A DNA stretch of 21,150 nt from a virus. The translations under genes were made by a program, and so were the position numbers. Position 1 is the first letter of the stretch. Every line of letters starts with the position of its first letter. This document shows positions 1 through 21,150 of the stretch, piece by piece. The stretch spans positions 1 to 21,150 of IMG/VR virus record IMGVR_UViG_3300017598_000745, one strand, 5' to 3'. The notes under the pieces were generated by a model that saw only the letters and a program-made list of their open reading frames with translations, ran no database searches and was not told where the DNA came from.

Positions 1-663
1 ACGGACGGGTCTACTATCGGCAGGGCCCCCACTCGCATTGAAAAACCAGTTATGGATCAGCAATGGCCGGACTGGATGACCGATACCGGGGCCGCTGAAG
101 TTCAGCATTACATGTATAATGAGCAAGACCCTCTGAACTTCTATATTTATCCCCCGCAGCCTTCTTCAAGCCCGGGGTATGTGGAGCTGGTTTATTCTGC
201 TGTCCCGCCTCCACTCATCTATAAATGGTTGCCGTCCACCGCCATGTATTCCTATATCTATTCCGGTGGGGGGTATGTCCTGCCCACCAAGACCAACGGC
301 TATCTTTACCAGTCGCAAAGCTCTTATGATTCGTCCGATACCACCGGAAGTACGGAACCTGTATGGCCTGAATACACCGAAGGGTTGTTCCTCGCTGTCA
401 TTGATAACGACTTTGGATGGACCGCCGTACCTTTTGACGTCCTTCAAACAATTTCCCTGGCCAATGTCTATTCCCCGATTATCCTGGACTATATTCTGGC
501 CAGAGCTTACTCCGTTGATGCCAATATCAGCCCTGTGGCGGCTGGAAGAGCCGGGTTTCATCTAAACGCCTACCTGTCGGCCCTTGGCGCTGGTGAGCAG
601 GCTGAGAGTATTTACGATCCAAACATTCAGAGCGCCGCGAAACCTTCTTCCAGGGGGGTATAA
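1..663 (+). CDS. Phage adaptor (tail-connector) protein, 5' end cut by the window
   Basis: The frame is open from base 1, so the ATG at 52 is probably internal and the gene begins upstream. Visible residues 1-220 match a phage adaptor-type family I know as DUF6682. The hallmarks are HYMYNEQDPLNFYIYPPQP, then GYVELVYSA, and near the end a LANVYSPIILDYILARAYS stretch followed by a helical tail. Such proteins are thought to sit at the portal/tail junction of short-tailed phages. Between the two family blocks (about bases 217-450) lies a beta-rich insertion with an NG..Y...TTGSTEPVWP signature, a small bead module seen in many phage structural proteins. The next gene starts right after the stop codon, so the two are probably translationally coupled. 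The fold assignment is family recognition; the exact position in the virion is inference. Confidence 0.8.
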   Translation, partial: TDGSTIGRAPTRIEKPVMDQQWPDWMTDTGAAEVQHYMYNEQDPLNFYIYPPQPSSSPGYVELVYSAVPPPLIYKWLPSTAMYSYIYSGGGYVLPTKTNGYLYQSQSSYDSSDTTGSTEPVWPEYTEGLFLAVIDNDFGWTAVPFDVLQTISLANVYSPIILDYILARAYSVDANISPVAAGRAGFHLNAYLSALGAGEQAESIYDPNIQSAAKPSSRGV

Positions 664-1317
664 ATGGCAACAACAAGCCTAAGCACCTTCACATCGTATG
701 TGATTCCATACGTTTCTAACTGTCCACTCCCCACAATCAAACGCGCTGTTCAGGACGCCATTATTGATTTCTCCAACAGGACTTGGATTAAACAGTATGA
801 TTTTACTTGGAATATCACAGATACCGATGTCATGGAAGAGTTGAACGATGCTGTTGATCTGGATATGGACGGTGTATACGGGTACAGGCCGATAGAAGTC
901 CTTACCATGATAGTAGACGGCGAAGTCGTGGAATATAAGGAAAGACCTGCTATTGAACAGGAATTTCCTGAATGGTGGGACGATACAGGCTCAGGGGCGA
1001 CGTATTGGTACATTGTGGATGATGATACTATCCGGGTTTATCCTGTGCCTACTGATGATTTTACCATGTTCTTAAGGGTGGCTTTCAGACCAAAGAGGGA
1101 CGCAGAAACTTTTGACGACAATATCTATAAGAACTGGGCTGATGTTATCTCAGAAGGCGCTAAGTTCCGTTTGTTTACCATGCCTGCGAAACCCTGGACT
1201 AACCCCGATGCCGCTATTCTTGCAAAGGCCTTGTACGATAAAGGTGTAAGCAGGGCCAAGGTGGTTGTGAGGCGCAGACAGTTACCCATGCACGATTTCA
1301 AAAAAGGATGGATATAA
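664..1317 (+). CDS. Phage head-tail connector / tail accessory protein
   Basis: 217 residues. The start is supported by an AGGGGGG ribosome binding site five bases upstream, and the ATG directly abuts the previous TAA. The N-terminus (YVSNCPLPTIKRAVQDAIIDF) and the middle (PEWWDDTGS, then DDDTIRVYPVP and LRVAFRPKRDAE) match a conserved phage family found beside DUF6682-like adaptors. The last third (GAKFRLFTMPAKPW.NP) is the most typical part of that family. No enzymatic motif is visible. The likely role is a structural ring or adaptor component joining head and tail, consistent with its neighbours. It could alternatively be called a tail tubular A-like protein; I cannot separate these without a structure search. 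Confidence 0.75.
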   Translation: MATTSLSTFTSYVIPYVSNCPLPTIKRAVQDAIIDFSNRTWIKQYDFTWNITDTDVMEELNDAVDLDMDGVYGYRPIEVLTMIVDGEVVEYKERPAIEQEFPEWWDDTGSGATYWYIVDDDTIRVYPVPTDDFTMFLRVAFRPKRDAETFDDNIYKNWADVISEGAKFRLFTMPAKPWTNPDAAILAKALYDKGVSRAKVVVRRRQLPMHDFKKGWI

Positions 1318-1320
1318 AAA

Positions 1321-1800
1321 ATGGCCTATGTTGATACAGGTTCGGAAACAGCCGATGATACTGTTGTTTTGAGGGAATTAAAAGGCTCTCCGCTTAATAC
1401 TGATGAGTTTGATTCCAGCTTGGAGGTTATCGTAGATGCACTCAATGATTTGGATACCAGGATTACTGCTGCCGCTTCGTCCTTTGAGTTGCCGGAGACA
1501 ACGGAGACTATTGCCTCTGGTATATTAACCTTGACTGAATCCTATTCTCAGAATTGTGTTGCCGATACCGAAGGAGCCGCAGCTACCGACGAATTAACCC
1601 GGATTAGCGGGTTAGGTGCTGGAAATGTTATCCTTCTTCAATCAACTGCCGATGCAAGAGTTATTACCGTAGAACATGGGACATATTTAAGACTTACGGG
1701 TGGCAATGATTTCGTGCTTAACGATTCAAATGACTGTATCTTTTTCAGGTGTGACTCAAACGGAATTTGCACCGAAATTACGAGGTCGAGTAATGTATAA
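1321..1800 (+). CDS. Small tail-fibre-associated protein
   Basis: 159 residues. The only nearby Shine-Dalgarno-like sequence is AAGGA at 1304-1308, 12 bases upstream, which is a long spacing; coupling to the previous gene may help. The N-terminal third is acidic and probably helical (DEFDSSLEVIVDALNDLDTRI), as in fibre attachment segments. The C-terminal half (ARVITVEHGTYLRLTGGNDFVLNDSNDCIFF, quoted here only in part as TVEHGTYLRLTGG and FVLNDSND) is a beta-rich motif ending in EITRSSN that recurs in phage fibre and capsid-decoration proteins. It overlaps the next gene by eight bases. It is probably an adaptor between the tail and the long fibre encoded next; this is inferred from order and composition, not a precise match. 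Confidence 0.65.
   Translation: MAYVDTGSETADDTVVLRELKGSPLNTDEFDSSLEVIVDALNDLDTRITAAASSFELPETTETIASGILTLTESYSQNCVADTEGAAATDELTRISGLGAGNVILLQSTADARVITVEHGTYLRLTGGNDFVLNDSNDCIFFRCDSNGICTEITRSSNV
1782..1785 (+). promoter_or_regulatory. Ribosome binding site that sets the fibre start
   Basis: GAGG, seven bases before the ATG at 1793. It lies inside the preceding gene, eight bases before that gene's stop region, which implies coupled translation and supports the start that gives a signal peptide. Confidence 0.6.
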
Positions 1801-4800
1801 AAAACTCTTTTGGATAGTTCTATGTGTCTTGGGATTAATTGCCCCTCACGCATACGGGAGTGATGGCGATAATCTTATTGAACCACTTGATCTTACAAGC
1901 CAAGTCGGAACGTCTGTTCTTCCCGTAGCCAACGGGGGCACGGGGTTAAGTACACCATTGAGCAACGACAGGCTGATATGGTCTACGGCCGGCGGTATCG
2001 CGGAAACCGGGGCCACTTGGTCCGAATCTACCAATGATTTTTCTATTACCAAAGGCGGAACGACATTCGGAACCACCCTTTTTTCAAAGTCTACTGATGG
2101 AACAACTCAGTCCATTATCCGGAACACGGATTCAAGCCTTGCCAGTGAGACCTATCTCCTTGAGCTTCAACAGACTGCTAACGCCGATGCTCAGGGCGAT
2201 TTCATTAAATGTTCCGATGATTACGGTGGAACGCCTTTGACGGTTTTTAATGTTGAATATGATGGTAGGACAAGGATAGGAGACGTAACACAACTGGTTG
2301 CTCCTACTTGGTATGCTACGGCAGGGAAAGCAGATGAGGGTTTAATGTTTGAGGCATATGGGATAAGTTCAAGTGATGCCACGGTACTTCCTTTGATGAA
2401 TATTCAAAACGATTGGTCTTATAACCCCGCGTCATTGACATCTTATCTCGGTACAGGTTTATTTTATACAAAAAAAGCGGTTGACACAGGGAATAGTGAA
2501 GTTTCAAATGTTTACTTTTTAATGGATCAGGACGGTAACGGTCAAGCTTCTGCTATTAGTTTACACTCAAGGGTTTCTAAAAATACTTACGGCGGGGCTT
2601 ATGCTTCATGGTTTTCATCTCAAAGGATCAATACTGCATCGGATGGTCATGTCAATGTGTGCGTCGAAGTCAATTCCAGGGATTTGTCCAAAGACACAGG
2701 ATTCAAGGAGGATAAAGTTTCCCCTTTGTCTGCTGGTATATGGAATAGTCATAGTCCGTATACGGCTGATTTTGTAGAAAATGGCGATTTTACTACCGAT
2801 ACAGGCTGGACAAAAGGAACGGGGTGGACAATAAGCGGCGGGGATGCAAGTTGCGATGGTAGTCAAGTTGCTACAAGTAATTTAGCACAAGCAGAGGCCA
2901 CACATGACAATTACTGCTATATAATAACATTTACAGTCTCTAACTATAGCGCAGGATCTGTTACTCCGTATATAGCCACTGATGCAGGCAGGGCCGTTAG
3001 CGCAAATGGAACATATGTTCAATTAATTACTGCAACCGCTGATGGAACTACAGGGTATATTTTTGTTGCCAATAGTACATTTGTCGGTGAAATAGACGAT
3101 GTTTCAATAACATATTCAAATCAACCGCAGACCTTTGGTTATGCTTTAAATGGTAGAAGTGACGTTCATTCCGGTGTTTATAATGGACTGTGGTTTAACC
3201 ATACAGCTATTCAACAAAACGGTGTAGGAATAAACTTTACAAACACTTACGACACAGACATGGGGCCGTTACATAACATTAAATTCTACGGATATTACGG
3301 TGACTCATATGCCTCAACTGATATTGATATTGTTACTTTTGATGGTGTTGCAACCTGGGCAAATATTACATCGGACGTTGAAGCTGACGATTCAAGCTAT
3401 GCTAACAACTTTTTGACCGACAACAATGATGTTGTATTTATTGGGTCTACATATCTGTTTGATGCGATTAGATACGCAAAATTAGGGGCTTCCGATTATG
3501 CTGTGGGTGCTGGTCCTGTTATAATATATTACTATGATGGAATTGATTTTACTCAGGAGGTTGGAGGAATCGCAACAGAACGAGTAGCAGGACAAACAGA
3601 TGGAGTCGACAATGTTAAAGATACCGAAATAATAGAAAGGGTTATTGATGATGAAACTATGACAGGTATTGTATATACTGCTGTTGCTGATGGCGGTAAT
3701 ACTGGAGCTGCAACCTGTACCTCAAGCGGAACCCTCTCAACTGACTACGCGTTGGATTTTAAGATTGAAATAGACACTAATGGCACACCGGATACCTTTA
3801 AATGGTCACAGGATGGTGGGTTAACGTGGGTTTATACTAAGGTTGCCATAACTGCCGGGTTGCAAACGCTCGGTGATGGGGTGAAGATTACCTTTGATAG
3901 CACAACAACTGCACATTTAGGTGATATCTGGACTTTTAAAGCAGGTGATTGTTTCGCCCAAAACGGTACGATGAGATTTGCTATTCCTCAACAGTGGGCC
4001 ATTGGAGCCGATTCTTATAATGCTAATTTAGACTCTGATAAGTATTATATTGCCATTATGACTACCACAAGCCCTTCAACTGACCCTGACGCAGATTTGC
4101 TTGTCCCGTTTGATGGCGGTTACGGTGCCCATATTTACGCCGCTGATAGCAGTGTTGGACTTACTGTTAGGTCTGAGGCTGATGTGGTATTCCATGTTGG
4201 CAAGAACAGGGGCGGCCAGGTCTTCATAGGTGATAACAGCACTACTCTTTCATCAAGTGGATACTTATGGTTAGGGCCAGCCACAGGCGCTAATTTGTCT
4301 CTTGACACAAATGAGATCCAGGCCAGAAATAACGGGGTGGCCGTTGCATTATTGTTAAATGCTCATGGTGGGACTGTAGTTATTGGAGATCAAACTGCGG
4401 GTATTGATTTGTATGGTTCGTCGATTGATATAGGAGATGGAGTAGCGACGGCTGACTTATGGGTCGATTTCGATACAGGAGGCCAAGACGGAAGAATCAC
4501 TTGGGATGAAGACCCAGGGGAGTTTGATTTTGACGCTGACTTGCACGTTGGCGGAGATGTAAAGCTGGGAGATGCAAGTGCGATTTTAGATCACCATGCC
4601 AGCTACACACTGCTTCAGGTTGGAGATCAAGCTTCTATTTTTGGTCTTACGGCTGCGTCAGGCTCAGGTGATCTTAACATCGGCAACAATGCTTATTATG
4701 ATGAAACTACAGACAATAGATACGAATATATAAATACTGGCTATGCTACTCGGTATATTCAGACTGACAACTATCATCTATTTTCTACAGCTCCAAGTGG

Positions 4801-5566
4801 GACCACAAATGGTGCCATTACGTTTGTTAACCCTCTTATGATTCAAGCATCTACTGTTACAGTTGCCGGTGTGTTGGACGTTCACGATCAAGAAGATGGA
4901 GGGGCGTCAAGCGGGCCAATTATTAAGAAAACCTATCAGGCAGGGGAAACCTACTCAGGCACAGAAGCGGCTCTTCTCGTAAAGGCCTACGATAAAGACG
5001 CGACGGTCACCCATGGATCAGGGGAGCATGCGGGTTTGGCCCTGTTCTTCAAACCTCTTTCAAGGTCCGGCGCAGGTGGCGAAAATATGCTTATGACCCT
5101 GCACCAGCATTCAAGCGGGACACAGACCTTGACCGCAGGGCTTATGATGTACCCTAAAGCCGCTGATGCCGCATTCGCAGTCAGAGCGTCAACATTGTCC
5201 TACGGCCTTGATTTTGCCGACAGGTCTAATACCGTTATCACTACCGCCGATTTCAGGGGTCACGAAGGGGAGATTATCTTTAATAACCCGGACGGTAATT
5301 GGGATTTCGGGGATGCGAATATTATAATCCACAGTCCCACGCCTAACGGGAACCTCGTAGGTGGATTGATTTTAGGTAATGGTACAGCCGCGAGTGCTGC
5401 GGTTACGGATGGGATTCAGATTTATGCCGTTGATTGCTCAGACAGTAAATCAACACTTGGATTATACACAGAACAGGCGGTAGAGGCAGGGGCAATGACG
5501 CCCTCCCATAAGCTAAAGGTCCGTATAAATGGCGTGGAGTATTATATGTCACTTGACGCGGTTTAA
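1793..5566 (+). CDS. Long tail fibre / receptor-binding protein with N-terminal signal peptide
   Basis: 1257 residues. The frame can be extended to 1700, but 1793 is preferred: GAGG lies seven bases upstream, and the product then begins with a complete Sec-type signal peptide (Lys-Lys, a hydrophobic core LFWIVLCVLGLIA, a likely cut after HAYG at residue 22). Residues 42-51 carry the GGTG motif common near the start of phage fibres. Residues about 330-438 form a jelly-roll, carbohydrate-binding-like module opening with ENGDFTTDTGW. Residues about 620-720 are another phage bead module (SQDGGLTWVY, then LGDIWTFKAG). The rest is Gly/Asp/Ser/Thr-rich beta structure, and the end (HKLKVRINGVEYYMSL) is a common fibre terminus. 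No S74 chaperone is attached. The middle is visibly more A+T-rich than the ends. Host receptor binding is inferred. Confidence 0.8.
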   Translation: MYKKLFWIVLCVLGLIAPHAYGSDGDNLIEPLDLTSQVGTSVLPVANGGTGLSTPLSNDRLIWSTAGGIAETGATWSESTNDFSITKGGTTFGTTLFSKSTDGTTQSIIRNTDSSLASETYLLELQQTANADAQGDFIKCSDDYGGTPLTVFNVEYDGRTRIGDVTQLVAPTWYATAGKADEGLMFEAYGISSSDATVLPLMNIQNDWSYNPASLTSYLGTGLFYTKKAVDTGNSEVSNVYFLMDQDGNGQASAISLHSRVSKNTYGGAYASWFSSQRINTASDGHVNVCVEVNSRDLSKDTGFKEDKVSPLSAGIWNSHSPYTADFVENGDFTTDTGWTKGTGWTISGGDASCDGSQVATSNLAQAEATHDNYCYIITFTVSNYSAGSVTPYIATDAGRAVSANGTYVQLITATADGTTGYIFVANSTFVGEIDDVSITYSNQPQTFGYALNGRSDVHSGVYNGLWFNHTAIQQNGVGINFTNTYDTDMGPLHNIKFYGYYGDSYASTDIDIVTFDGVATWANITSDVEADDSSYANNFLTDNNDVVFIGSTYLFDAIRYAKLGASDYAVGAGPVIIYYYDGIDFTQEVGGIATERVAGQTDGVDNVKDTEIIERVIDDETMTGIVYTAVADGGNTGAATCTSSGTLSTDYALDFKIEIDTNGTPDTFKWSQDGGLTWVYTKVAITAGLQTLGDGVKITFDSTTTAHLGDIWTFKAGDCFAQNGTMRFAIPQQWAIGADSYNANLDSDKYYIAIMTTTSPSTDPDADLLVPFDGGYGAHIYAADSSVGLTVRSEADVVFHVGKNRGGQVFIGDNSTTLSSSGYLWLGPATGANLSLDTNEIQARNNGVAVALLLNAHGGTVVIGDQTAGIDLYGSSIDIGDGVATADLWVDFDTGGQDGRITWDEDPGEFDFDADLHVGGDVKLGDASAILDHHASYTLLQVGDQASIFGLTAASGSGDLNIGNNAYYDETTDNRYEYINTGYATRYIQTDNYHLFSTAPSGTTNGAITFVNPLMIQASTVTVAGVLDVHDQEDGGASSGPIIKKTYQAGETYSGTEAALLVKAYDKDATVTHGSGEHAGLALFFKPLSRSGAGGENMLMTLHQHSSGTQTLTAGLMMYPKAADAAFAVRASTLSYGLDFADRSNTVITTADFRGHEGEIIFNNPDGNWDFGDANIIIHSPTPNGNLVGGLILGNGTAASAAVTDGIQIYAVDCSDSKSTLGLYTEQAVEAGAMTPSHKLKVRINGVEYYMSLDAV

Positions 5567-10379: not shown

Positions 10380-10596
10380 AAATGTAAAGACACCGGCAAT
10401 TCCATCTGTCCCCCAAGGCCTTGACCATGGGCTATCCGACTTTTTGACGGCCATGAAGCAGCAGCTTGACACCATGACGGGGTTAGGGTCTGCCAAGAAT
10501 AAATATGTAACCCGTAGAGAACTTGAAAATATGGGGGTTGATTTAAAGCTGCTTGATTCGGACACCGGGAGGTATGATTTTGACAGTATCTTGTGA
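10372..10596 (+). CDS. Small conserved phage structural-operon protein
   Basis: 74 residues; GGAG lies seven bases upstream and the start overlaps the end of the hub gene by eight bases. The pattern IPSVPQGLDHGLSDFLTAMKQ...GLGSAKNKYVTRREL matches a short family often found right after this hub gene in phages, in which a proline-rich start is followed by a helix and a (R/K)xVTxRDL motif. No enzyme motif or membrane segment is visible. It may be a minor virion or assembly protein. Function unknown. Confidence 0.75.
   Translation: MGRNVKTPAIPSVPQGLDHGLSDFLTAMKQQLDTMTGLGSAKNKYVTRRELENMGVDLKLLDSDTGRYDFDSIL
10567..10572 (+). promoter_or_regulatory. Ribosome binding site of the GNAT-like gene
   Basis: GGGAGG is one base from the ATG at 10574 and seven bases from an in-frame TTG at 10580. 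The spacing favours the TTG; codon preference favours the ATG. Confidence 0.5.
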
Positions 10597-11158
10597 GTTA
10601 TACCCCTATGTTGAGATAGACGGCTGTTGGACTTTTACGGACACCTTTATCAAGGGCCTCTATCGGAAAATGTTTGATGACGACGACATTCAGCACACCT
10701 TCCTGGACGGCAGCGTTCAATCGGAAGACGATCTGGTAAGGCGATTGAAGAGGGACGACCACAAGGTATTTATCGTTGGCGGGGAAGAAAAGGTCAAAGC
10801 CCTTGTATGGCTGTCGGATTTCAGGCAGGCCACGGCGTATGCCCACTTCTGGGTTGCAAAGGAATACCGGGGAGGACTTGAGGCGGTTAATATTGCCTTT
10901 AAGTTCCTGGAAGAGATGCTTTATATGTCTGACCATGAGGGTTGTTTCATGTTTGATGTCTTATTCGCTTATGTGTCTGAAGAAAACAAGGGCGTGGTGA
11001 AACTGCTGAACAGCCTGTATGCTCTGTCACAGCAGGGAGACAGTGTTTTGTCTGGCAAAGTCCTTGGCGTTATTCCCAACGCCATGATCGACCATTATAA
11101 AAAGCGGTCCGTAAACGCTATTCTGGGTTACGCCACACGAAAGGAGAACGTATCATGA
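10574..11158 (+). CDS. GNAT-like (N-acetyltransferase-fold) protein
   Basis: 194 residues from this ATG. The start is uncertain: TTG at 10553 is possible but lacks a ribosome binding site, and TTG at 10580 has the ideal spacing (seven bases) to GGGAGG at 10567-10572, which is too close to the ATG at 10574. The sequence resembles divergent GNAT-like phage proteins located at this spot: a beta-strand around KVFIVGGEEKVKALVWL, a HFWVAKEYRGG motif where the acetyl-CoA loop would be, then helix and strand segments and an NAMIDHY stretch. The classic Q/RxxGxG/A loop is imperfect. It could acetylate a virion or host protein, or be a catalytically dead structural relative. It overlaps the previous gene by 23 bases and the next by four (ATGA). 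Confidence 0.6.
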   Translation: MILTVSCELYPYVEIDGCWTFTDTFIKGLYRKMFDDDDIQHTFLDGSVQSEDDLVRRLKRDDHKVFIVGGEEKVKALVWLSDFRQATAYAHFWVAKEYRGGLEAVNIAFKFLEEMLYMSDHEGCFMFDVLFAYVSEENKGVVKLLNSLYALSQQGDSVLSGKVLGVIPNAMIDHYKKRSVNAILGYATRKENVS

Positions 11159-12153
11159 ATTTTGGAGGCAGTTCGTCATCATCCGGCCAGTATTCAATAG
11201 ACCCGGCGGCATCGGCCCGTATGGCAGCGGTTCAGGAGCGTCAGGTGGCAATGGGAGAAGAGCAGTGGCGTCTTGGCCGTGAGCTGTTTGAACCCTATGA
11301 GAGACAGATGATTGAGGCTAATAGAGGTCTTATAGGTCCTAATGCTGAACTTGTAAAGGCTCAGTTTGAAAGCCAGAAGGGGCTTATGCCTGAGCGGGAA
11401 GCGGCTGAACGGGGGGCCTTACAGACCGCGCAACAGCTTTACGAAAAGGCTGGCACTCCCATTGACCCTGAACAGAGGGCAGGACAGGCGCAGGCCGATG
11501 TCACCCAGGCGTATACTCAGGGTGCGGGGAATATGAGACGGGATCTCAGTAGAATGGGCGTGGCTCCTGGTTCCGAAAGAATGACATCCGCTATGTCTGA
11601 TATGGCCATGGACAGGGCCAGGGCCATTGGCGGCGCCCGTACTGGAGCCAGAAGAAACGCGGAACAGGAAGAATTGTCACGTCTCGGTCTGGCATTGCAG
11701 GCACGCCCGGGTAACTTGCCATATCAAACAGGACAGGTGCAAATGGGAAATTATGGCCTGCAAAACCCCATGAACAGGGCTATGGGTTTTTACGGGAACG
11801 CTATTCAGGCGAATGCCGCCGGGATGAGGCCGTTGTCATTTGGAAGGGGTTCTTCATTCAGCGGGGGGTTTCTGTCGAGCATAAGGAGCATGAAAGAGGA
11901 CATAAGAGACCTTACAGGCATCGAGTTTGATAAGCTGTACCACCTAAAACCCGTCAGTTTCAGGTTTAAGGAGGATGTGCAGCCGAGACGTATGGGTTTC
12001 ATTGCCGAGGACGTGGAACCCCACGCAAATGAGCTTGTGGCAAGGGATGAATACGGGATTATGCAGGGTCTTTATTATCAAGACATTATCCCTCTTCTGG
12101 TAGGCGAGGTCCAACGGCTTAATAAACGGATAAAGGCACTGGAGGGCAAATAA
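11155..12153 (+). CDS. Helical virion protein with C-terminal peptidase S74 (intramolecular chaperone) domain
   Basis: 332 residues; AAGGAG lies eight bases upstream. Residues 1-230 are Gln/Ala/Arg/Met-rich and helical, with repeated ERQVAMGEEQWRLGRELFEPYERQ-like amphipathic segments (only short parts quoted), resembling internal virion proteins that leave the capsid with DNA. Residues about 242-332 are a peptidase S74 domain: SIRSMKEDI around the expected cleavage site (Ser242 aligns with the catalytic Ser), then LKPVSFRF, RRMGFIAEDVEPH, YYQDIIPLLVGEVQRLNKRI. In known cases this domain trimerises, guides folding of the preceding protein and cuts itself off just before the Ser. Here it follows a helical protein rather than the long fibre. 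The family's usual Asp after the Ser is Ile. Self-cleavage is therefore likely but not certain. Confidence 0.8.
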   Translation: MNFGGSSSSSGQYSIDPAASARMAAVQERQVAMGEEQWRLGRELFEPYERQMIEANRGLIGPNAELVKAQFESQKGLMPEREAAERGALQTAQQLYEKAGTPIDPEQRAGQAQADVTQAYTQGAGNMRRDLSRMGVAPGSERMTSAMSDMAMDRARAIGGARTGARRNAEQEELSRLGLALQARPGNLPYQTGQVQMGNYGLQNPMNRAMGFYGNAIQANAAGMRPLSFGRGSSFSGGFLSSIRSMKEDIRDLTGIEFDKLYHLKPVSFRFKEDVQPRRMGFIAEDVEPHANELVARDEYGIMQGLYYQDIIPLLVGEVQRLNKRIKALEGK

Positions 12154-12403: not shown

Positions 12404-13894
12404 ATGGTATTAGGAACCCCTCATTTACAATACGGCGCAGATATGGGCGGGTACAATGGGTCTTTAGGGTTAGGCATGGAGACAGCGGCCATGACCCCGC
12501 AGGATTCAGGAGCCTTGAAACAGCCGAAACAGTTTCAGGACCAGCAGAAGGCCGAACCAGACAAAGGCTATGACTTTGGGGATGTCCTTTTGAACTTTGT
12601 TTTCAGGGGTTATCCGGCGGCACTCGAAAGACTTGACCTACAGAAGAAAGACAGGAAGCTCGCTCAAGAATTAAGAATGTTGGAGACGCAGAGACAACAG
12701 GGGGTTTCGTATTTGAACCGTGCGTATGAAGCCTCACAAGCTGGAAAGTTGGAAGATGCGGCTAACTATCTCGGCAAGACATATGAATCTTTCCCTGACG
12801 GTGTTGAATACGGTGGCATCAGGTCTCCACGGCCAGATGAAGAAGGCAACCCGTTTGTGCATTTTAAAGACAAAGGCACAGGGGAGATGAAAGCGGCTTT
12901 CCCTCTTACAAAAGAAAACATTGATTACGCCTTGAAAGAGGCAAACGCCGGATTGCAAGACAAGAGTTACATGAAAGGGCGGATTGCAAGGCTCGGAGAA
13001 ATTAAGTTGACCAATGCAAAGCTCATTAAACAGGCTCAGATTTTAGAAGATGGTAGCGTGGCCTGGCAGCACATGACAAGGGACGGTGATATAGTCCAGA
13101 AAACCGGGTCGAAGGAAGAGTTTGAAAAAGTTGGTGGTCGATACGTGGATGCTCAGAGAATGGCTGATAAAATGAAGATGGATATTGAGATAGAAGAAAT
13201 AGGCCTTGAGAAAGCCCAGTTAGGCGTTAAAGAGCAGAAGGGCCGCATTAAACAGCAGGACCAAACCTATGGTCTTGGAGGGCTTAAAAAACAATATTGG
13301 ACGGCAAAGACTAGCGCGGCAAAGTTAGGCCTTGAAAATGCGAAATCAGGGACGCCAGGTAAGCCAAAAGTATCATTTAAGGAAAAGCAAGCGGCACTCA
13401 AAGCAGCTCAAAATTATATGAAGGAGATGGAGAGGGATATTGTCACAGACCGACTTATAGATCCCGACACTGGGAAACCGTTAAGCGAAAGACAAAAAAA
13501 GCAACTATTCAATGAGCTGGTGGATACTTTCACCGCTTATTATACCGGGGAGCAACCCGAACAGAACCAACCGCAAATGCCTTCAGAGGGACAAGAGGTT
13601 GTGGTTGATGGCAAGAAATACCGTGTATCCAAAAAGCCTGGGGCACAACAACCTACACAGTCTGTGCCAACAGCCATGGGAAAAATACCACCACAACCGC
13701 AAGGCAAACCTCCCCAACCTTCCGAAAGATCGCTCTTGAGTCGATTTCTTAGAACCGATGAGCAGAAGGAGGAACTCAAAGAAATGGCAGAGGGTATTAT
13801 GGAACGTGGGGTTAAACCGACCCATGAGGGCGTGAACTGGTTGCGTGACAAGATGCGAAAACTGTTCGGGACTGACAAAACATCCCAAAACTAA
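12404..13894 (+). CDS. Helical internal virion (DNA-ejection-like) protein
   Basis: 496 residues with the best ribosome binding site in the window, AGGAGGT. No catalytic motif is visible. Residues about 72-130 are long charged helices leading into a TPR-like helix pair (NRAYEASQAGKLEDAANYL, then YESFPDGVEYGG), a pattern seen in phage proteins in the gp15-like position. Residues 190-330 are Lys/Glu/Gln-rich and probably coiled coil. Residues about 385-445 are a Pro/Gln-rich linker containing a small beta hairpin (VVVDGKKYRVSK). Residues 446-496 are a basic amphipathic helix. Position and composition suggest an internal core protein that is ejected into the host with the genome. The T7 gp15 comparison rests on order and helix content, not on clear sequence identity. 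Confidence 0.65.
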   Translation: MVLGTPHLQYGADMGGYNGSLGLGMETAAMTPQDSGALKQPKQFQDQQKAEPDKGYDFGDVLLNFVFRGYPAALERLDLQKKDRKLAQELRMLETQRQQGVSYLNRAYEASQAGKLEDAANYLGKTYESFPDGVEYGGIRSPRPDEEGNPFVHFKDKGTGEMKAAFPLTKENIDYALKEANAGLQDKSYMKGRIARLGEIKLTNAKLIKQAQILEDGSVAWQHMTRDGDIVQKTGSKEEFEKVGGRYVDAQRMADKMKMDIEIEEIGLEKAQLGVKEQKGRIKQQDQTYGLGGLKKQYWTAKTSAAKLGLENAKSGTPGKPKVSFKEKQAALKAAQNYMKEMERDIVTDRLIDPDTGKPLSERQKKQLFNELVDTFTAYYTGEQPEQNQPQMPSEGQEVVVDGKKYRVSKKPGAQQPTQSVPTAMGKIPPQPQGKPPQPSERSLLSRFLRTDEQKEELKEMAEGIMERGVKPTHEGVNWLRDKMRKLFGTDKTSQN

Positions 13895-13905: not shown

Positions 13906-16900
13906 ATGCCTATATTTCCGTCATTAGAGCCTGAATCAAAATCCCCGTCATACGACGAATTACGTAAGCAGTTGTCGGCACAGGGGTTAGACCTTGTCCC
14001 TGTCGAAGAACCCGCTGATAACGATGGGGTTTTCGAGAGTTTGGGGAAAGGGATAACCCACGGTACTTTAGGGTTGGGTCGTTCCATAGGGTCCGGCGTC
14101 CAATGGTTAGGAAACCGTCTTGGCAGTGAAACCATATCTGATTTAGGGGAAGACGCGGCGGGTTATTGGGGTAAACTTCAGGAAGGGTTTGAACCATCCA
14201 AAGACATTCAAGGAACCCTATGGGAAAAACCCGAACTGTTAGCAGATCTCTCCTGGTGGGTTTATAATATCGCTGATACGATCCCCTGGCTTATGGCATC
14301 TATCATTCCCGGTATCGGGGCGGCTAAGTATATCAAGATTGCCGGGAAAGCCGTTCAATTAACCCCACAGGCAATCGCCAGAATAGCCCACTACGGGGCC
14401 GCTTTAACGGGTGGCGCAACCGCTGGAAGCCTCGAAGGGGCGCAAACATATGAAGAGGTTTTAAAGCAGACCGGAGACGAGAAAAAAGCAGCAAGGGCCG
14501 GAGAAATGATGGCTGGTTTTGCTGCTGGCCTTAACGCTATCGGCGTCAGCAAAATTCTTGGAAAGGCTGGCTCTGGATTGGCAGGAAAGGCGAAGAAGGC
14601 TGGCATAGGTTTCCTCGCAGAGGGAACGACTGAGGCCCTTGAGGAACCCTCTGAAGAAATCGCAAAAGGAGTATCTCTTGGCTTGAGTGCAGGGCAGACA
14701 GCGGCCAACGCCGCAACAGCCCTTAGAGACAGGGGTTTAACGGTTTTCCCAATCGCTGGTGTTGCTGGTGCCGGTGCTTCGGTTATGACCAATATTACGG
14801 AACCGCCCAAACGCCAAAAGAAAACCAAATCTCCTGAAATGGACGCCCTCGTCAATCTCCTGAAACAAAAGGATCTCTCCCGCGAAGCCCTTGAGTCTAT
14901 GCGAAAAGACCTCAAGGACGACTCCCCCGCCGCACAAGAGATTGACAAGATCCTCTCTCTGTTGCCCGAGAAGGAAGGAAAGGGCGTTAAGGTAGAGCCT
15001 GAGAAGGAAGGGAAACCGATTGAGCTGACGGAAGAGATGGTAAAGGAGACGCCACATGCCGAAGAAATTAGAAAGAAAGCTGAAAAGCCAAGCGAAGAAA
15101 AAGGGGATGAAGGGGAAGAAGGCAGACGCTTACGTCTACGGGACGTTGAGAAAGACCGGGTGGAAGCCGAAAAAGAAGAAGAAATAAAGGAACCGCCGGA
15201 AGTTAAAGAACCGTGGGAGATGAGTCTTGTTGAATATGCCAAATCAAAACTTCCAAAAGAGCAAGCAGATCAGATAACGGATGAATCACAGGCTAAGTCA
15301 TTTCGAGGGCAATATATAAAAGATATGAAAGGGTGGATTGCTGCAAACAAAACCGTCCCCTCAGAAGTCCTAAAAGATTATCCCGACTTACAACCGCCAC
15401 CTGAAATCACTAAACCCATACCACCAGAAGCCGTCAAATCCACCACAAAGGAGGGACCCATTACATGGCTTGAAAAGCCTTGGGAATTACCTGAATCTGA
15501 AGCGACTGCATATATAAAGAATTTAGAAGAAGGCAAGAAGGGGGATTTGATAAAATTTGCAAAAACATGGGTTGATGAGAATGGTAATTGGCATATGCCA
15601 GGAGATACACTTGAGCAACAACTTAAAGGTCGAAGTGAAAAAGATATAGTTGAATTTATAAAATGGGCGCAATCGCAAAGTAGGCACGTAGAACGATTTG
15701 CAGCCTCTCCCGCTGCTACAGAATTACGAGTTCGAGGTGTTCCAGTAGACACCATTAAATGGCAACAAGAAAACCTAAGAGAAGCCGTCAAATCCACCAC
15801 AATCGACGAGGGGAAGAAGCCTACCACTGCTATGCCTAAGAAGGAGAAACCCTCTGAAGAGGCTAAAGTAGCCCCGGCAAAGGGTGAAGTAGGGGTTGTG
15901 GAGAGTGAGCTTGAACCTCTTACCCTTGAAGAGATAGAAGCAACAACTAAAGCTAATGCCATAGCAGAAACTAAGGATTTAATTGAACGTGAGTTGCGTT
16001 TGAACGGTGAAAGCCCCGTTGTGGAAGCCTTACGAAAAGGTCTTGATGTTTTAGAGAAACAAGCAAAACCGATATTACAACCTCCCCCCAAGGAAGCCAA
16101 GAAGGAGAAACCCTCTCCTGAGCCTGAAAAGCCTATTGTAGAGCCTGTTAAAGAGGCAAAGAAGCCTATCGTAACCGAATTTCGTCAACTCTTAACCGAC
16201 CTCAAAAAAGAACAAGGCGAAAAAGCCTATTTTGATGACCGCCTCAAAGGTCCAAGAGAACGGGAATCACAGGAAGTCTTAGACGCCTACCGAAAACAGC
16301 ATCCCAAGGGTCCGATTGTCCTTTACAAAGAAAAGGGTGACAGGGGTGTCATGATTACCCGTAGTTCAAAGAAGCCGGGTAAGTGGCAGATTACATCTTT
16401 TGACGAGCGCGGTTTTATAGGGGATACGTTAGCCGATACCGAAGAAGCGGCCATAGGCGAAGCATACCGTGAAGGAAACCGTATCCCTGACCCTGAACGT
16501 GCTGAAAAACAGATGGTATCTGAAGGGTTTCGTAAGGGGATTATAGAAACAGAGAAAGTGCAGGCTGAATGGCAAGAGAAGGCAAAGCAGTTTAAGGCAA
16601 AGAAGCCTATCACTGAAGGGGTCCGCAATAGAATATACAACAGGCTTAATTTGGCATTGCTGGCAGCAGAACGGTCTGGTATGGCGCCTGGTGTGGAACT
16701 TCCTGCAAGCATGGTTGAAGATTTAAGAAAAGATGCAAGGATAATGGCTGACTTAATAGCTGATGAATACGCCGAAAAGAAGGGGGCTGGAGCAATATGG
16801 CTATCTAAAAAATTAAAAGAAGATATATGGCTCATGGAACTTCAAGATAAGGCGATTGAGATCCAGAGACAAGAAAAACAACCTGGTATTAAAGTCGCCC

Positions 16901-19900
16901 CAACGAAGGAAGAGACAAAACCTTTATCCACCGAACTCCGCACCAAAACCGGCAAACCCTTCAAGACGGAAAAGTCGGCCAGGTTTCACCTTAAAACCTC
17001 TAAGAAATCAGAGTTTGACTATGACCTGATTAAAGAAGATAAGGGGTATATCTGGAGAGAGAAAGCCGAGAAACCAACCCCTTCCCAAAAGCTGCTCCTT
17101 GAAGATGAAAAAGCCGCTGATAGAAGGCGGGTGTTGGCAGAGGGAGCTAAGAACATCAGGATAGCCATAATGCACTCTGGCCGTCTAAGACGTTCGGACA
17201 AGAGCTTTAAGGGTGAGTTTAGGGATGCTTTAAAAGGTCCCGGGTCGTGGCCTCTCTGGATGTTCAGGAAAGATGGTTTATCCTTTGATGAGATGGTATC
17301 GGCCATGATTGAAGCCAAGTGGCTTCCAGAGGGTGCTACGGAACAAGACTTGATGGATGCCATAGAACAGAACATTACACAGAGGATATCCGGGGAAGGT
17401 ACACGAGAATATCTTAACAAGAAGATACAAGAAGAGATAGACTTATACAAGGATTTAGAACGTCAAGCGGGGGTGTCAAAAAATGACATTGCAAAAGCTG
17501 AAAGAGATGGCATACAAGCTGCAAATGAGGAAGCTAAGAAAAGAAAGGATAGCCGAGATCCAATCGATAAAGAAGGGTTTGATTGGGGAGCCGGGGAATG
17601 GACAAAAGAAGAACCGACCTTCAAGCTAACCCCTGAAGAACCTACCACACATGAGAAAGCCGCCCTTCTTGAAAAAGAAGGTGTGGTTAAACGTCCCAAG
17701 AAACAATCTTCCAAAAATGTATTCCCATCTGGTGAAGGGATAAAGACTGTCCCAGGCAAACAAAAGAAATTGTTTGGCCCTGAAAAGGGCGAGACTTTGG
17801 ATTTGTTTGACCAACCTACTACCCGCAAGTCTGTAGTTCCCACAGAAAAAGACTTAATTGCATATCATAATACCACTGAAACCGAGTTATTGTCAGCCTT
17901 AGAAAGTGGTGGTTTAGCCGTACCCTCCATCGCAATCACTCAAAAAGACATCCAATTTGACAAATACGGTGAGGTTACATTGGTAGGCAGAAAAGAATTG
18001 ATTGACCCTGCTGAATACGGGAATCGTGTTTTTGACTCAGATATATATTCCCCCCGCGTACCTGGTAAGGAATGGAATGTAAACAGGAAAGAGGGTAATG
18101 AGGTATTTGAACGCTTTGAGCCTGTCATGGATGAGGTAGATGAGTCTAAGTGGTTGTTTCAGAACGATTATGAAAAAGGGAAAGATTCATTTATTGACTA
18201 TGCTGATCGGTCTTCAGCCTTAAAGGTTGCTTTTTTAAGAGATCAGGGTGTCCCGGTTAGGATTCCGAGAAAACCAGTTTCGCTTCGGTTTGCGTTTTCT
18301 GACACAAAAGCGGTTTCGGACTACCTAAAGTCGCATGGAGGAAACATCCACAATATTGATTTCCAGAGTAAAGAGCATGAGGATTTGTCAAGAGTAGTTG
18401 AAGAAGGGATAAAAGAATATACTGAGAAACAATACCCTGGAAGGCGAAGCCTGGAAACAATATCCCAACGCTTAAAAGAAATGAACTTTGGAGAAGATGG
18501 ATTCCTTCATTACAATCTTTTAAGCCAACTTGGAGACGATGTTAAAACAGTCAAAGACAGACCAACAGAGGTAGATAAACGCAAATTAGAAAGCAGGGTT
18601 AAGGGAAAATTCACTAAAAAACTCTCAGCTCAATACTTAGATTGGGTCAATAAAATTGCAGATCCGATGTATGGTGATCCATACCTTAAACTTGGAAGAA
18701 AGAAAGTCCCTTACACCCTTGATAATATCGTTCAAGCGATTAAGAATGAGGGGTTGAAAGCCAAGGAAAAGACTATAGTTTTTGGTCCTGGTTCTGCTCG
18801 GGCTACTGCTGCTGAAGAAATTAGGTCAATTAAGGGGTTGCACAAACGAAAAGGCAGGCTGGTTTCAGGAGAAGAAGTATCTAAAGCAAAAGAATTGCAG
18901 GAAAAGGAACGAGAGGCTTTTACAGATCAGCTAATCAATAAATATAAATATAAGAATTGGCGCGGTGATGTTGACGTATGGAATGCTCTTGACGACGCCA
19001 TGAGATCTATAGGGAAGTTTCTATCTGGTAAAAATCGTTCTGTACAAAGGATGCAAAGCATTCTGAATCGACATGGATTTGAAAATGTAGGTGATACATT
19101 AGCCAGAAAAGGTATCCGTTTCGCTAACATACTTATTGATACCCCTACCCAGTATTTTGAAGCTAAACCCCGAAGGGCCGTTGATTTTAGTGAATTTACG
19201 GGAGCTGTTGTACCCACTACGGCAAGCAAGAAGCTAAAAGCGGCACTTACTAAAACAGGGTTGCAGGTCAGGACATATAAAAAATATGATGCAGAGAGTA
19301 GGCATAAAGCTGTGGCAGGGTTTCATAAGAAACCTGGGGTGTTATTTGCTACAGGAACAAAGACCCCCAAAGGCCTCCCATACAACACCGTCAGCGACAT
19401 CGTAGCCTCCATCTACTCCAAGCTCACCATGCCGGACGTTTCCGTTCGTGTTCTCCCTGATGTAGCCAACCTCGGACCTAAGAGAATTGACAGGTTCGGG
19501 ATTGACCCGGAAAAGCAGATGGTCAGGGGCGTATTCACCCAAGAAAACGGTAAGCCTGTTATCTACGTTTTCGCTAACGCCATGAACAGCAAGAAAGACG
19601 TGGTAAACGTGGCATTAGAAGAAGTTTTTCACTACGGCCTGTTTAAAGCATTGGGTCCCAAATATAATCTTGAACTAAGCCCAATCTACAAAAAGCATGA
19701 AAAGGCTATTAAGGACGCTCTTGGCGCTGATTACGATATTGACTTAAGGACTGTCGAAGGCCGCGCGGAGGCTGTAGATGAATGGCTTGTAAAATCCCTT
19801 GCTAAAGACCCTGATTCCGTCCCTGGCAGCGTGTGGTCTAAAATCATAGCTGCGGTTAAGAGGTTCCTGAGAAACGCAGGGGTGAAGGTCTCATACAGTG

Positions 19901-21150
19901 AGGGGGAGCTTAAACGCCTGATTGAAGATACGTTGACGAAAAAGCAACCGGATATTGGACAACTACCCACCAAAACTGCAAAAGGTGTCCCAATTAGATA
20001 TGTTCCGAAAAAGACTCTTGCTCCTGCATTTGGATTTTATGACCCAAAAGCGAATGAGATTTATGTGAGGGAAGATTTACCAAAGGCTGTAAAACGTTTC
20101 GTAACACAACATGAGATATATCATTCAACTGATGAAAACTTAAATAAGAAACTCACTTCTGAAATAAAAGCTAACTTCTTCCCTGGGATTAAAGACCCTA
20201 TTGGATTATTGAAAACAGTTGTAGCAAGCATGACACCTGAACGTTTGAAGTTTTACACAGGTGTTGGGACAGGCGACCCCACCCAAATCAAATCCATCTA
20301 CAATCAAGGCACATTCGACCCTCAGAACCCGGATATACGGTTCCAAGTCAGTGCCTACCAGGGGGGTCCCGCTGAGGTAGTAGGCGGGTATAAGGATGAG
20401 TTTATAGGTACGGGTGCAACGGGGGCGGCTTTCGGGTATGGGCATTATTTTTCGAGCTTGGAAGAAGTTGGAAGGGCGTATGCTCAAATAGCTGAAGACC
20501 GGCGCCAAGAGAAAATTAATGATGAAGTTGCCGCCAAATTAATTTCTAAACTAATCCCCTTGCGAGACAAAAAAACGATTACTGAAGATGCCTACCAGGA
20601 CGCTTTAGGCGATGCAGAAGTCCCTCATTTATGGGATCAACTAAAGAAATATCCATTTGACCTTGATGTTAATACTATTGTTGATTCTGTAGTTGATAAA
20701 TATAAAGGAAAACCGATTCGCCACCTCCATAAAGTTACACTCCACAAAGGCAAATCTCCGTCAGAATATAAGTGGTTGGATTGGGATAAGAAAGTCCCTG
20801 CAAAGGGTCTTGATAGGCTGATAGCTGAAGCAGAAAAGGAATCGAAAACTGATAAAGACATCCTTGAGCTTGTTCGAGAGCTTAATATGTCAAAGCAAAC
20901 TGGTGTCGATGGCGAAACCCTCTACAAGCGTATTTCCAGTGTCTTTGGTGAGATACGGAATAGGATAAATAAAGAAGAGGGCAGGATGTACTCGACATCT
21001 GGGCAGTCGTTTTATAATAGGGGTGCCTCCGCCTTCCTTCTCCGTGCAGGCATAGACGGTATCCGCTATCCTGCCGGTTCACTGTCCGGGATGAAAGATA
21101 AGGGTGCAAAGAATTATGTCGTATTTGACCCTAAAGCTATCACTATCGAG
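13906..21150 (+). CDS. Giant polyvalent phage protein (metallopeptidase-like and ADP-ribosyltransferase-like domains), open at window end
   Basis: 2415 codons without a stop, read through to the last base; AGGA lies six bases upstream of the ATG. In order: a Trp/Gly/Ala-rich hydrophobic region (about 111-310, including WWVYNIADTIPWLMASIIPG, then LAEGTTEALEEPSEE); charged Lys/Glu/Pro linkers; a GPIVLYKEKG...GKWQITSFDERGFIGDT module (about 800-855); a KTGKPFKTEKSARFHL module (about 1006-1050); a helical module (about 1070-1170); possible clamp-binding motifs (1286-1301); a large domain from about 1318 to 1790 with YHNTT, GGLAVPSIAI and YFEAKPRRAV; a zincin-like domain with EEVFH (1905-1909); a second with HEIYH (2069-2073); and an ADP-ribosyltransferase-like domain (about 2147-2415; IGTGATGAAFGYGHYF, AGIDGIRYP, NYVVFD). 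These are hallmarks of phage polyvalent proteins thought to be injected with DNA to act on the host. Activity is untested. Confidence 0.9.
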   Translation, partial: MPIFPSLEPESKSPSYDELRKQLSAQGLDLVPVEEPADNDGVFESLGKGITHGTLGLGRSIGSGVQWLGNRLGSETISDLGEDAAGYWGKLQEGFEPSKDIQGTLWEKPELLADLSWWVYNIADTIPWLMASIIPGIGAAKYIKIAGKAVQLTPQAIARIAHYGAALTGGATAGSLEGAQTYEEVLKQTGDEKKAARAGEMMAGFAAGLNAIGVSKILGKAGSGLAGKAKKAGIGFLAEGTTEALEEPSEEIAKGVSLGLSAGQTAANAATALRDRGLTVFPIAGVAGAGASVMTNITEPPKRQKKTKSPEMDALVNLLKQKDLSREALESMRKDLKDDSPAAQEIDKILSLLPEKEGKGVKVEPEKEGKPIELTEEMVKETPHAEEIRKKAEKPSEEKGDEGEEGRRLRLRDVEKDRVEAEKEEEIKEPPEVKEPWEMSLVEYAKSKLPKEQADQITDESQAKSFRGQYIKDMKGWIAANKTVPSEVLKDYPDLQPPPEITKPIPPEAVKSTTKEGPITWLEKPWELPESEATAYIKNLEEGKKGDLIKFAKTWVDENGNWHMPGDTLEQQLKGRSEKDIVEFIKWAQSQSRHVERFAASPAATELRVRGVPVDTIKWQQENLREAVKSTTIDEGKKPTTAMPKKEKPSEEAKVAPAKGEVGVVESELEPLTLEEIEATTKANAIAETKDLIERELRLNGESPVVEALRKGLDVLEKQAKPILQPPPKEAKKEKPSPEPEKPIVEPVKEAKKPIVTEFRQLLTDLKKEQGEKAYFDDRLKGPRERESQEVLDAYRKQHPKGPIVLYKEKGDRGVMITRSSKKPGKWQITSFDERGFIGDTLADTEEAAIGEAYREGNRIPDPERAEKQMVSEGFRKGIIETEKVQAEWQEKAKQFKAKKPITEGVRNRIYNRLNLALLAAERSGMAPGVELPASMVEDLRKDARIMADLIADEYAEKKGAGAIWLSKKLKEDIWLMELQDKAIEIQRQEKQPGIKVAPTKEETKPLSTELRTKTGKPFKTEKSARFHLKTSKKSEFDYDLIKEDKGYIWREKAEKPTPSQKLLLEDEKAADRRRVLAEGAKNIRIAIMHSGRLRRSDKSFKGEFRDALKGPGSWPLWMFRKDGLSFDEMVSAMIEAKWLPEGATEQDLMDAIEQNITQRISGEGTREYLNKKIQEEIDLYKDLERQAGVSKNDIAKAERDGIQAANEEAKKRKDSRDPIDKEGFDWGAGEWTKEEPTFKLTPEEPTTHEKAALLEKEGVVKRPKKQSSKNVFPSGEGIKTVPGKQKKLFGPEKGETLDLFDQPTTRKSVVPTEKDLIAYHNTTETELLSALESGGLAVPSIAITQKDIQFDKYGEVTLVGRKELIDPAEYGNRVFDSDIYSPRVPGKEWNVNRKEGNEVFERFEPVMDEVDESKWLFQNDYEKGKDSFIDYADRSSALKVAFLRDQGVPVRIPRKPVSLRFAFSDTKAVSDYLKSHGGNIHNIDFQSKEHEDLSRVVEEGIKEYTEKQYPGRRSLETISQRLKEMNFGEDGFLHYNLLSQLGDDVKTVKDRPTEVDKRKLESRVKGKFTKKLSAQYLDWVNKIADPMYGDPYLKLGRKKVPYTLDNIVQAIKNEGLKAKEKTIVFGPGSARATAAEEIRSIKGLHKRKGRLVSGEEVSKAKELQEKEREAFTDQLINKYKYKNWRGDVDVWNALDDAMRSIGKFLSGKNRSVQRMQSILNRHGFENVGDTLARKGIRFANILIDTPTQYFEAKPRRAVDFSEFTGAVVPTTASKKLKAALTKTGLQVRTYKKYDAESRHKAVAGFHKKPGVLFATGTKTPKGLPYNTVSDIVASIYSKLTMPDVSVRVLPDVANLGPKRIDRFGIDPEKQMVRGVFTQENGKPVIYVFANAMNSKKDVVNVALEEVFHYGLFKALGPKYNLELSPIYKKHEKAIKDALGADYDIDLRTVEGRAEAVDEWLVKSLAKDPDSVPGSVWSKIIAAVKRFLRNAGVKVSYSEGELKRLIEDTLTKKQPDIGQLPTKTAKGVPIRYVPKKTLAPAFGFYDPKANEIYVREDLPKAVKRFVTQHEIYHSTDENLNKKLTSEIKANFFPGIKDPIGLLKTVVASMTPERLKFYTGVGTGDPTQIKSIYNQGTFDPQNPDIRFQVSAYQGGPAEVVGGYKDEFIGTGATGAAFGYGHYFSSLEEVGRAYAQIAEDRRQEKINDEVAAKLISKLIPLRDKKTITEDAYQDALGDAEVPHLWDQLKKYPFDLDVNTIVDSVVDKYKGKPIRHLHKVTLHKGKSPSEYKWLDWDKKVPAKGLDRLIAEAEKESKTDKDILELVRELNMSKQTGVDGETLYKRISSVFGEIRNRINKEEGRMYSTSGQSFYNRGASAFLLRAGIDGIRYPAGSLSGMKDKGAKNYVVFDPKAITIE
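15426..15448 (+). repeat. Direct repeat in polyvalent gene linker, copy 1
   Basis: 23 bases identical to 15780-15802, encoding EAVKSTT. The two copies are 354 bases (118 codons) apart and frame one small Trp-rich module. They lie in linkers, as expected if a module was inserted or duplicated through short homology. Confidence 0.9.
15780..15802 (+). repeat. Direct repeat in polyvalent gene linker, copy 2
   Basis: Identical to 15426-15448. After it the sequence turns into a Lys/Pro/Glu-rich linker. Confidence 0.9.
15838..16116 (+). repeat. Second linker repeat pair, KKEKPS
   Basis: 18 identical bases at 15838-15855 and 16099-16116, encoding KKEKPS, 261 bases (87 codons) apart. They flank a helical segment (EEIEATTKANAIAETKDLIE) that stands alone between linkers. 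Confidence 0.85.
16154..16611 (+). repeat. Third linker repeat pair, AKKPI
   Basis: 17 identical bases at 16154-16170 and 16595-16611, encoding AKKPI in both copies, 441 bases (147 codons) apart. They bracket the module with GKWQITSFDERGF. Confidence 0.85.

Follow-up and report, generated by a model that had tools for sequence, protein, structure and literature searches.

The window analyzed here is an entire IMG/VR record of 21,150 bp, classed as linear; it is a metagenomic fragment and is open at both ends. A single open frame fills its last third. The question raised by this locus is what kind of protein such a frame encodes and where in the infection that protein would act.

Extent and surroundings of the open frame

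The frame begins with an ATG and continues for 2415 codons without a stop, as the preliminary description had stated and as the ORF listing and translation bear out. It finishes on the final base of the window, closing a whole codon. The encoded protein (the giant) amounts to 270 kDa so far, and its C-terminus lies beyond the contig. Since the window is the complete linear record, both ends are assembly ends and the record has no downstream DNA; because the record stops inside the frame, the true C-terminus is unseen. The last 30 bases have no match in any other viral contig that could serve as a downstream overlap for the 3' end.

A frame of 2415 codons greatly exceeds what chance would give: in 50 first-order Markov sequences matched in length, stop-free runs reached 255 codons at most. 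GC1 is higher than GC2 and the first position is purine-rich in 16 of 16 consecutive 450-bp blocks, and over the gene neither alternative forward frame stays open for more than 70 codons. An internal frameshift, which the preliminary description had named as a finding that would count against it, was not seen, the codon-position pattern being uniform and the alternative forward frames closed. The antisense ORFs of 100-283 aa within the gene look like shadows. Common gene callers do list genes that run off the end of a contig, and the earlier remark that they would miss the giant was overstated. An assembly artefact (sequences wrongly joined, or a broken frame read through) might be suspected in a metagenomic fragment with two open ends. 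Such an origin is extremely improbable, as the codon-position signal is uniform with no alternative frame across 7.2 kb, the modules recur in relatives, and the absence of cysteine extends over the full length.

Table 1. Features of the window and of the giant (residue numbers are those of the giant)
Feature	Position	Strand	Basis
SU10-adaptor-type protein 1	1-663	+	cut by contig start
SU10-adaptor-type protein 2	664-1317	+	directly after first adaptor
Internal virion/tail protein (IVP), 1263 aa	6588-10379	+	phrog_511, E=1.7e-93
Probable GNAT acetyltransferase	10553-11158	+	phrog_1249, E=0.012 (weak), and syntenic GNAT position
S74-chaperone (tail-fibre-type) protein	11155-12153	+	Pfam S74, E=5e-9; zero Cys; gene order of relatives matches
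496-aa orphan directly upstream of giant	12404-13894	+	zero Cys; slot by synteny
Giant gene	13906-21150	+	ORF listing, translation
Gly/Ala-rich hydrophobic N-terminal module, aa 152-294	14359-14787	+	iterative profile
Charged K/E/P-rich linker and small domains, aa ~301-1300	14806-17805	+	composition
PBECR5 and obligate C-terminal half, aa ~1309-1814	17830-19347	+	PF18814, relatives, AF2 model
Degenerate zincin-like module 1, aa 1874-2006	19525-19923	+	profile common to Vibrio D96a, douglas, BcepMigl and POI1126 giants
Metallopeptidase-like module 2, HEIYH	19978-20235	+	phrog_87 metallo-protease, E=2.5e-5
ART-PolyVal tail motif, aa 2124-2147	20275-20346	+	35 relatives
ART-like domain, aa 2150-2415	20353-21150	+	profile; closes with the contig's last codons

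Upstream of the giant, the order is two SU10-type adaptors, a large tail protein, a tail-collar protein, the IVP, GNAT, the S74 protein, and the orphan (Table 1). The frames 1321-1800 and 1700-5566 overlap by 101 bases, and the 1288-aa tail protein (1700-5566) probably begins downstream of its listed GTG. The phrog_511 protein ties the phage to Bcep22, Parlo, Skulduggery, Vibrio D96a, and Stx-phage-type (933W-like) podoviruses. Compared with a Vibrio homologue of ~540 aa, it carries an insert of ~640 aa (aa ~190-832) that splits two conserved halves. A carbohydrate-binding-module-like stretch at aa 883-920 (E=0.004) is below the cut-off.

The order IVP - (GNAT) - (S74) - protein of 400-960 aa - giant of 2307-4877 aa is conserved in nine podoviruses (Parlo, Skulduggery, BcepMigl, KpnP_ZX1, POI1126, Atu_ph08, TM27B, D96a, and douglas); the giant of Atu_ph08 is encoded on the opposite strand. 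Judged by gene order, the giant of the window occupies the DarB-like giant slot of Bcep22/Parlo/Skulduggery-type podoviruses. The slot was tested independently with loci gathered solely by similarity to the neighbouring IVP. Among the open downstream giants of these loci, the N-terminal module is found in nine, the zincin module in five, and the ART module in four; zincin and ART modules are adjacent in L134, L140, and L170. Full-length homology between the window giant and its slot-mates is not detectable. Bcep22 gp75, JC1 gp69, BcepMigl gp69, and Parlo gp81 are nevertheless like the window giant in late slot, giant size, and lack of cysteine, and the zincin module is common to the BcepMigl and POI1126 giants. 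DarB-like giants of Bcep22-type podoviruses are also preceded by a cysteine-free protein of 400-540 aa, as in the window. No sequence relatives were found for the 496-aa orphan, and by analogy of position it is predicted to be a partner ejection protein in the slot of JC1 gp68. Mass spectrometry of JC1 virions detected both its giant (gp69) and the preceding protein (gp68) (PMC9144972).

Modules of the giant

Phage polyvalent proteins combine domains of disparate activities in one polypeptide, are encoded by late virion genes, and are packaged and delivered into the host (Iyer 2017, PMC5512222). The giant had been assigned to this class from its domain string, and the assignment is supported by PBECR5, the shared modules, and the DarB-like slot. 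Several disparate domains are present (PBECR5, two zincin-like, one ART-like, and the N-terminal hydrophobic module), and the gene lies among late virion genes, preceded on its own strand by those for the adaptors, the collar protein, the IVP, and the S74 fibre. PBECR5 is the only polyvalent domain of the giant above a curated cut-off; the other modules also occur in giants bearing LPD22, LPD38, LPD39, InPase, ddrB-ParB, and ART-PolyVal. The giant adds one more polyvalent protein, from an uncultured phage, to a class that is already known. Compared with DarB-like giants, it has PBECR5, a second peptidase, and a Q-type ART, and the DarB-type N6-adenine methylase and helicase dyad has no Pfam match in the 2415 aa, from which the C-terminus is missing. 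Matches to Coronavirus NSP10, PASTA, ICA69, and Kil were dismissed as below cut-offs or very short.

Single-sequence queries with the giant, or with its N- and C-terminal pieces, found no close relatives in IMG/VR. Module alignments were therefore used instead, with boundaries set by iterative profiles. Sequence searches of the PDB gave chance matches only.

The search against Pfam that the preliminary description had proposed as a check placed PBECR5 (PF18814) at 96.5 bits (E=3e-27), well above the gathering score of 25. In the iterative profiles the unit spans aa 1313-1804, and its C-terminal half carries YFEAKxxRAVxxxEF. An alignment-based scan of viral contigs yielded 265 relatives, from which 80 were retained, and H1321, S1341, E1752, K1754, R1757, and E1763 are invariant in 84-89 aligned relatives. 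AlphaFold2 modelled aa 1299-1830 from 55 rows as one continuous unit (pLDDT 93.2, pTM 0.85), implying that the Pfam family covers about half of an integrated domain of ~510 residues. With this model, Foldseek found eleven viral giants at E < 1e-3 and no solved structural relative (best E=0.77), and no BECR structures were among the PDB matches. In the BECR clade as described, an N-terminal helix bears the catalytic His, strand 4 has Ser/Thr, and the core is compact, with a helix and four to five strands, whereas the 510-aa model places H1321 in strand 1. Given this position, the RNase label stays a prediction that the model does not confirm. An ART-like reading from a DarT1 match (rank 15, E=3.1) was too weak. 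The PBECR5 giants of Acinetobacter phage Ab9, Cobetia phage Carin1, and Bacteroides phage BF1-TP2 share the 510-aa PBECR5-YFEAK unit at 23-30% identity, and that of Carin1 also has the N-terminal hydrophobic module. They differ from the window giant in their cargo (LPD22, LPD38, InPase, and GNAT) and belong to other phage types.

The N-terminal module is common to 46 relatives and to nine slot-mates found independently of the giant. Hydrophobic segments of the giant lie at aa 122-140, 201-219, and 276-298. The module resembles membrane-active internal proteins and is likely to be membrane- or channel-associated. The linker that follows has no family matches, and a profile at aa 430-520 was rejected as an artefact that had drifted into tail-nozzle proteins.

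Two metallopeptidase-like modules follow PBECR5. The first reads LEEVFHYG, against LHEVVGHYG or LHEAFHxG in relatives. It therefore lacks HExxH or HExxxH and has EEVFH at 1905-1909. A sequencing error is unlikely to have caused the loss of the histidine, as the codon of E1905 (GAA) is two base changes away from His. The giants of Vibrio phages D96a and douglas 12A4 are cysteine-free, occupy the same slot, and have a homologous module 1; they differ in keeping the peptidase motif intact and in bearing LPD38/LPD39, InPase, and methylase. Module 2 has an intact HExxH (HEIYH, H2069-H2073) with weak to moderate profile support, and its similarity to DUF6782 (E=7e-4) is below the cut-off.

Between peptidase module 2 and the ART-like domain lies the motif QIKS..N.GTFDPQNPDIRF, which also closes Pfam-confirmed ART-PolyVal domains. 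Here it stands without the catalytic N-terminus and appears to be a vestige, a trace of a past ART-PolyVal domain loss. The ART-like domain itself shows moderate similarity to the ART-PolyVal profile (E=3e-4, with a profile-comparison probability of 40%). It starts with AYQGG (codon CAG), where nearly all relatives have [YFW]HG[ST]. In terms of the H-Y-D triad (His in strand 1, Tyr in strand 2, Asp in strand 5), Gln stands at 2152 while Y2181 and D2408 are kept. A slot-mate giant (L117, 15934-20373) also has a Q-type start, WQGGP, which speaks against sequencing error as the cause of the change from His to Gln. Together the two giants point to a putative Q-type ART subgroup. A structure model of aa 1855-2415 was discarded (pLDDT 52).

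The loss of the key histidine in two enzyme-like modules would fit a structural part of the virion, acting as an internal scaffold or in the manner of a tape measure, that remains in the particle or does no more than line the channel and whose enzyme-like domains are relics with no function in the host. The likeness of the N-terminal module to membrane-active internal proteins agrees with such a part, as does cysteine exclusion, which fits channel proteins and tape measures too (P1 Sit, for example, has no cysteine in 1140 aa). We consider this unlikely, because PBECR5 keeps H1321 and S1341, the second peptidase has an undamaged HEIYH, and slot relatives swap methylase, helicase, InPase, and ART cargo in an effector-like manner.

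Cysteine exclusion and passage through the tail

The 2415 residues of the giant include no cysteine. About 20 would be expected from the other proteins of the window (P about 3e-9). TGY triplets are common out of frame in the same gene (34 and 100), indicating that the absence acts at the protein level. Thirteen named giants with ~46,000 residues have four cysteines in all, and 80 PBECR5 giants have 0.44 per 1000 pooled, 52 of them having none. By comparison, other ORFs of at least 300 aa at the same loci as the PBECR5 giants have 6.5 per 1000, and long non-giant ORFs (at least 800 aa) have 4.95. Cysteine is the sole outlier in the composition of giants (log2 -3.9), the next residue being threonine (-0.46). 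Near or complete absence was observed at 13906-21150 and in the giants of loci L002-L015, L016-L095, and L177-L217; other phage proteins differ.

The protein directly before the giant is cysteine-free in 10 of 10 phages checked, and the S74 protein is cysteine-free wherever identifiable; most IVP, GNAT, portal, and fibre proteins, by contrast, do contain cysteine. Known ejection proteins (T7 gp15 and gp16; P22 gp7, gp16, and gp20; N4 gp50-52) also have none, compared with 7-13 per 1000 in the remaining proteins of the T7, N4, P22, and P1 genomes. Cysteine exclusion thus appears to mark the ejection set, to which the giant, its upstream neighbour, and perhaps the S74 protein would belong. The mark has exceptions and does not hold everywhere: the namesake P1 DarB (2255 aa) contains nine cysteines, and a single one occurs in each of T7 gp14 and gp6.7. 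In N4-like virion RNA polymerases, the absence has already been noted and ascribed to passage through the tail or periplasm. Cysteine is not mentioned in the paper on polyvalent proteins (PMC5512222) or in an open review of ejection proteins (PMC8954989), and its exclusion from polyvalent giants seems to be new to the literature.

It could be argued that the giant is made early or late in the cell and acts there unpackaged, its cysteine depletion having some other cause. This is very improbable: the late-gene position and the virion proteomics of JC1 (PMC9144972) speak against it, and so do the other proteins of the same genomes (T7, N4, P22, and P1), which are not cysteine-free.

We consider it very likely that the giant is a polyvalent effector of a Bcep22/Parlo/Skulduggery-type short-tailed phage, packed in the head and ejected with the cysteine-free protein encoded upstream. 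T4 Alt and the N4 virion RNA polymerase are precedents for injection. The latter (Schitoviridae gp50) is likewise giant and cysteine-free and is ejected through a narrow tail with two cysteine-free partners; it differs in its RNA polymerase module, which is not found in the window giant. We infer that the giant would be synthesised late, loaded into the phage head, and released via the tail with or before the DNA, alongside the product of 12404-13894. It would have to unfold for the narrow tail, and Gram-negative hosts would add an oxidising periplasm; unfolding and the crossing of this compartment are proposed as the reason why cysteines are excluded. The N-terminal hydrophobic module would probably sit in a channel or membrane. 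Every catalytic role is conditional as well: once in the cytoplasm, the peptidase with the intact HEIYH could process its own chain or a target, the PBECR5 unit may act on host or phage RNA or on another early target, and the degenerate peptidase and Q-type ART would probably be binding or relic modules.

Prophages with named hosts were used to compare the tail with the periplasm; they come from binned genomes with partial ORFs and small numbers. Giants of Pseudomonadota (seven loci) have 0.27 cysteines per 1000 pooled, four of the seven having none, while those of Clostridia/Erysipelotrichia (n=22) have 1.36 per 1000 pooled, with one zero (Mann-Whitney p=0.004, a statistic that ignores relatedness). 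Local backgrounds are mostly 6 to 24 per 1000. Depletion is about ten-fold in Clostridia prophages, whose hosts lack an outer membrane, which implicates tail passage or packaging, and the comparison points to an additional push to zero in Gram-negative hosts. The PBECR5 giant L217 (6857-15889), from a bin of Gastranaerophilales (non-photosynthetic cyanobacteria), contains more cysteine than any other giant with a named host (12 residues, 4 per 1000).

Taken jointly, these results may mean that near-total cysteine exclusion is a general sequence mark of tail-ejected phage proteins and identifies the ejection set of Bcep22/933W-type phages, that tail passage acts everywhere with a Gram-negative push to zero, and that PBECR5 is a distinct fold of ~510 aa, not a small BECR RNase. 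We put this joint reading forward tentatively. The 510-residue unit, modelled with confidence and lacking a solved relative, is a domain present in hundreds of phage contigs. Cysteine exclusion extends from N4-like virion RNA polymerases to polyvalent giants and their upstream partner, and its pattern is relevant to the question of which of the two, tail channel or oxidising periplasm, imposes the constraint. Counting cysteines offers a cheap, genome-based test for ejected phage proteins.
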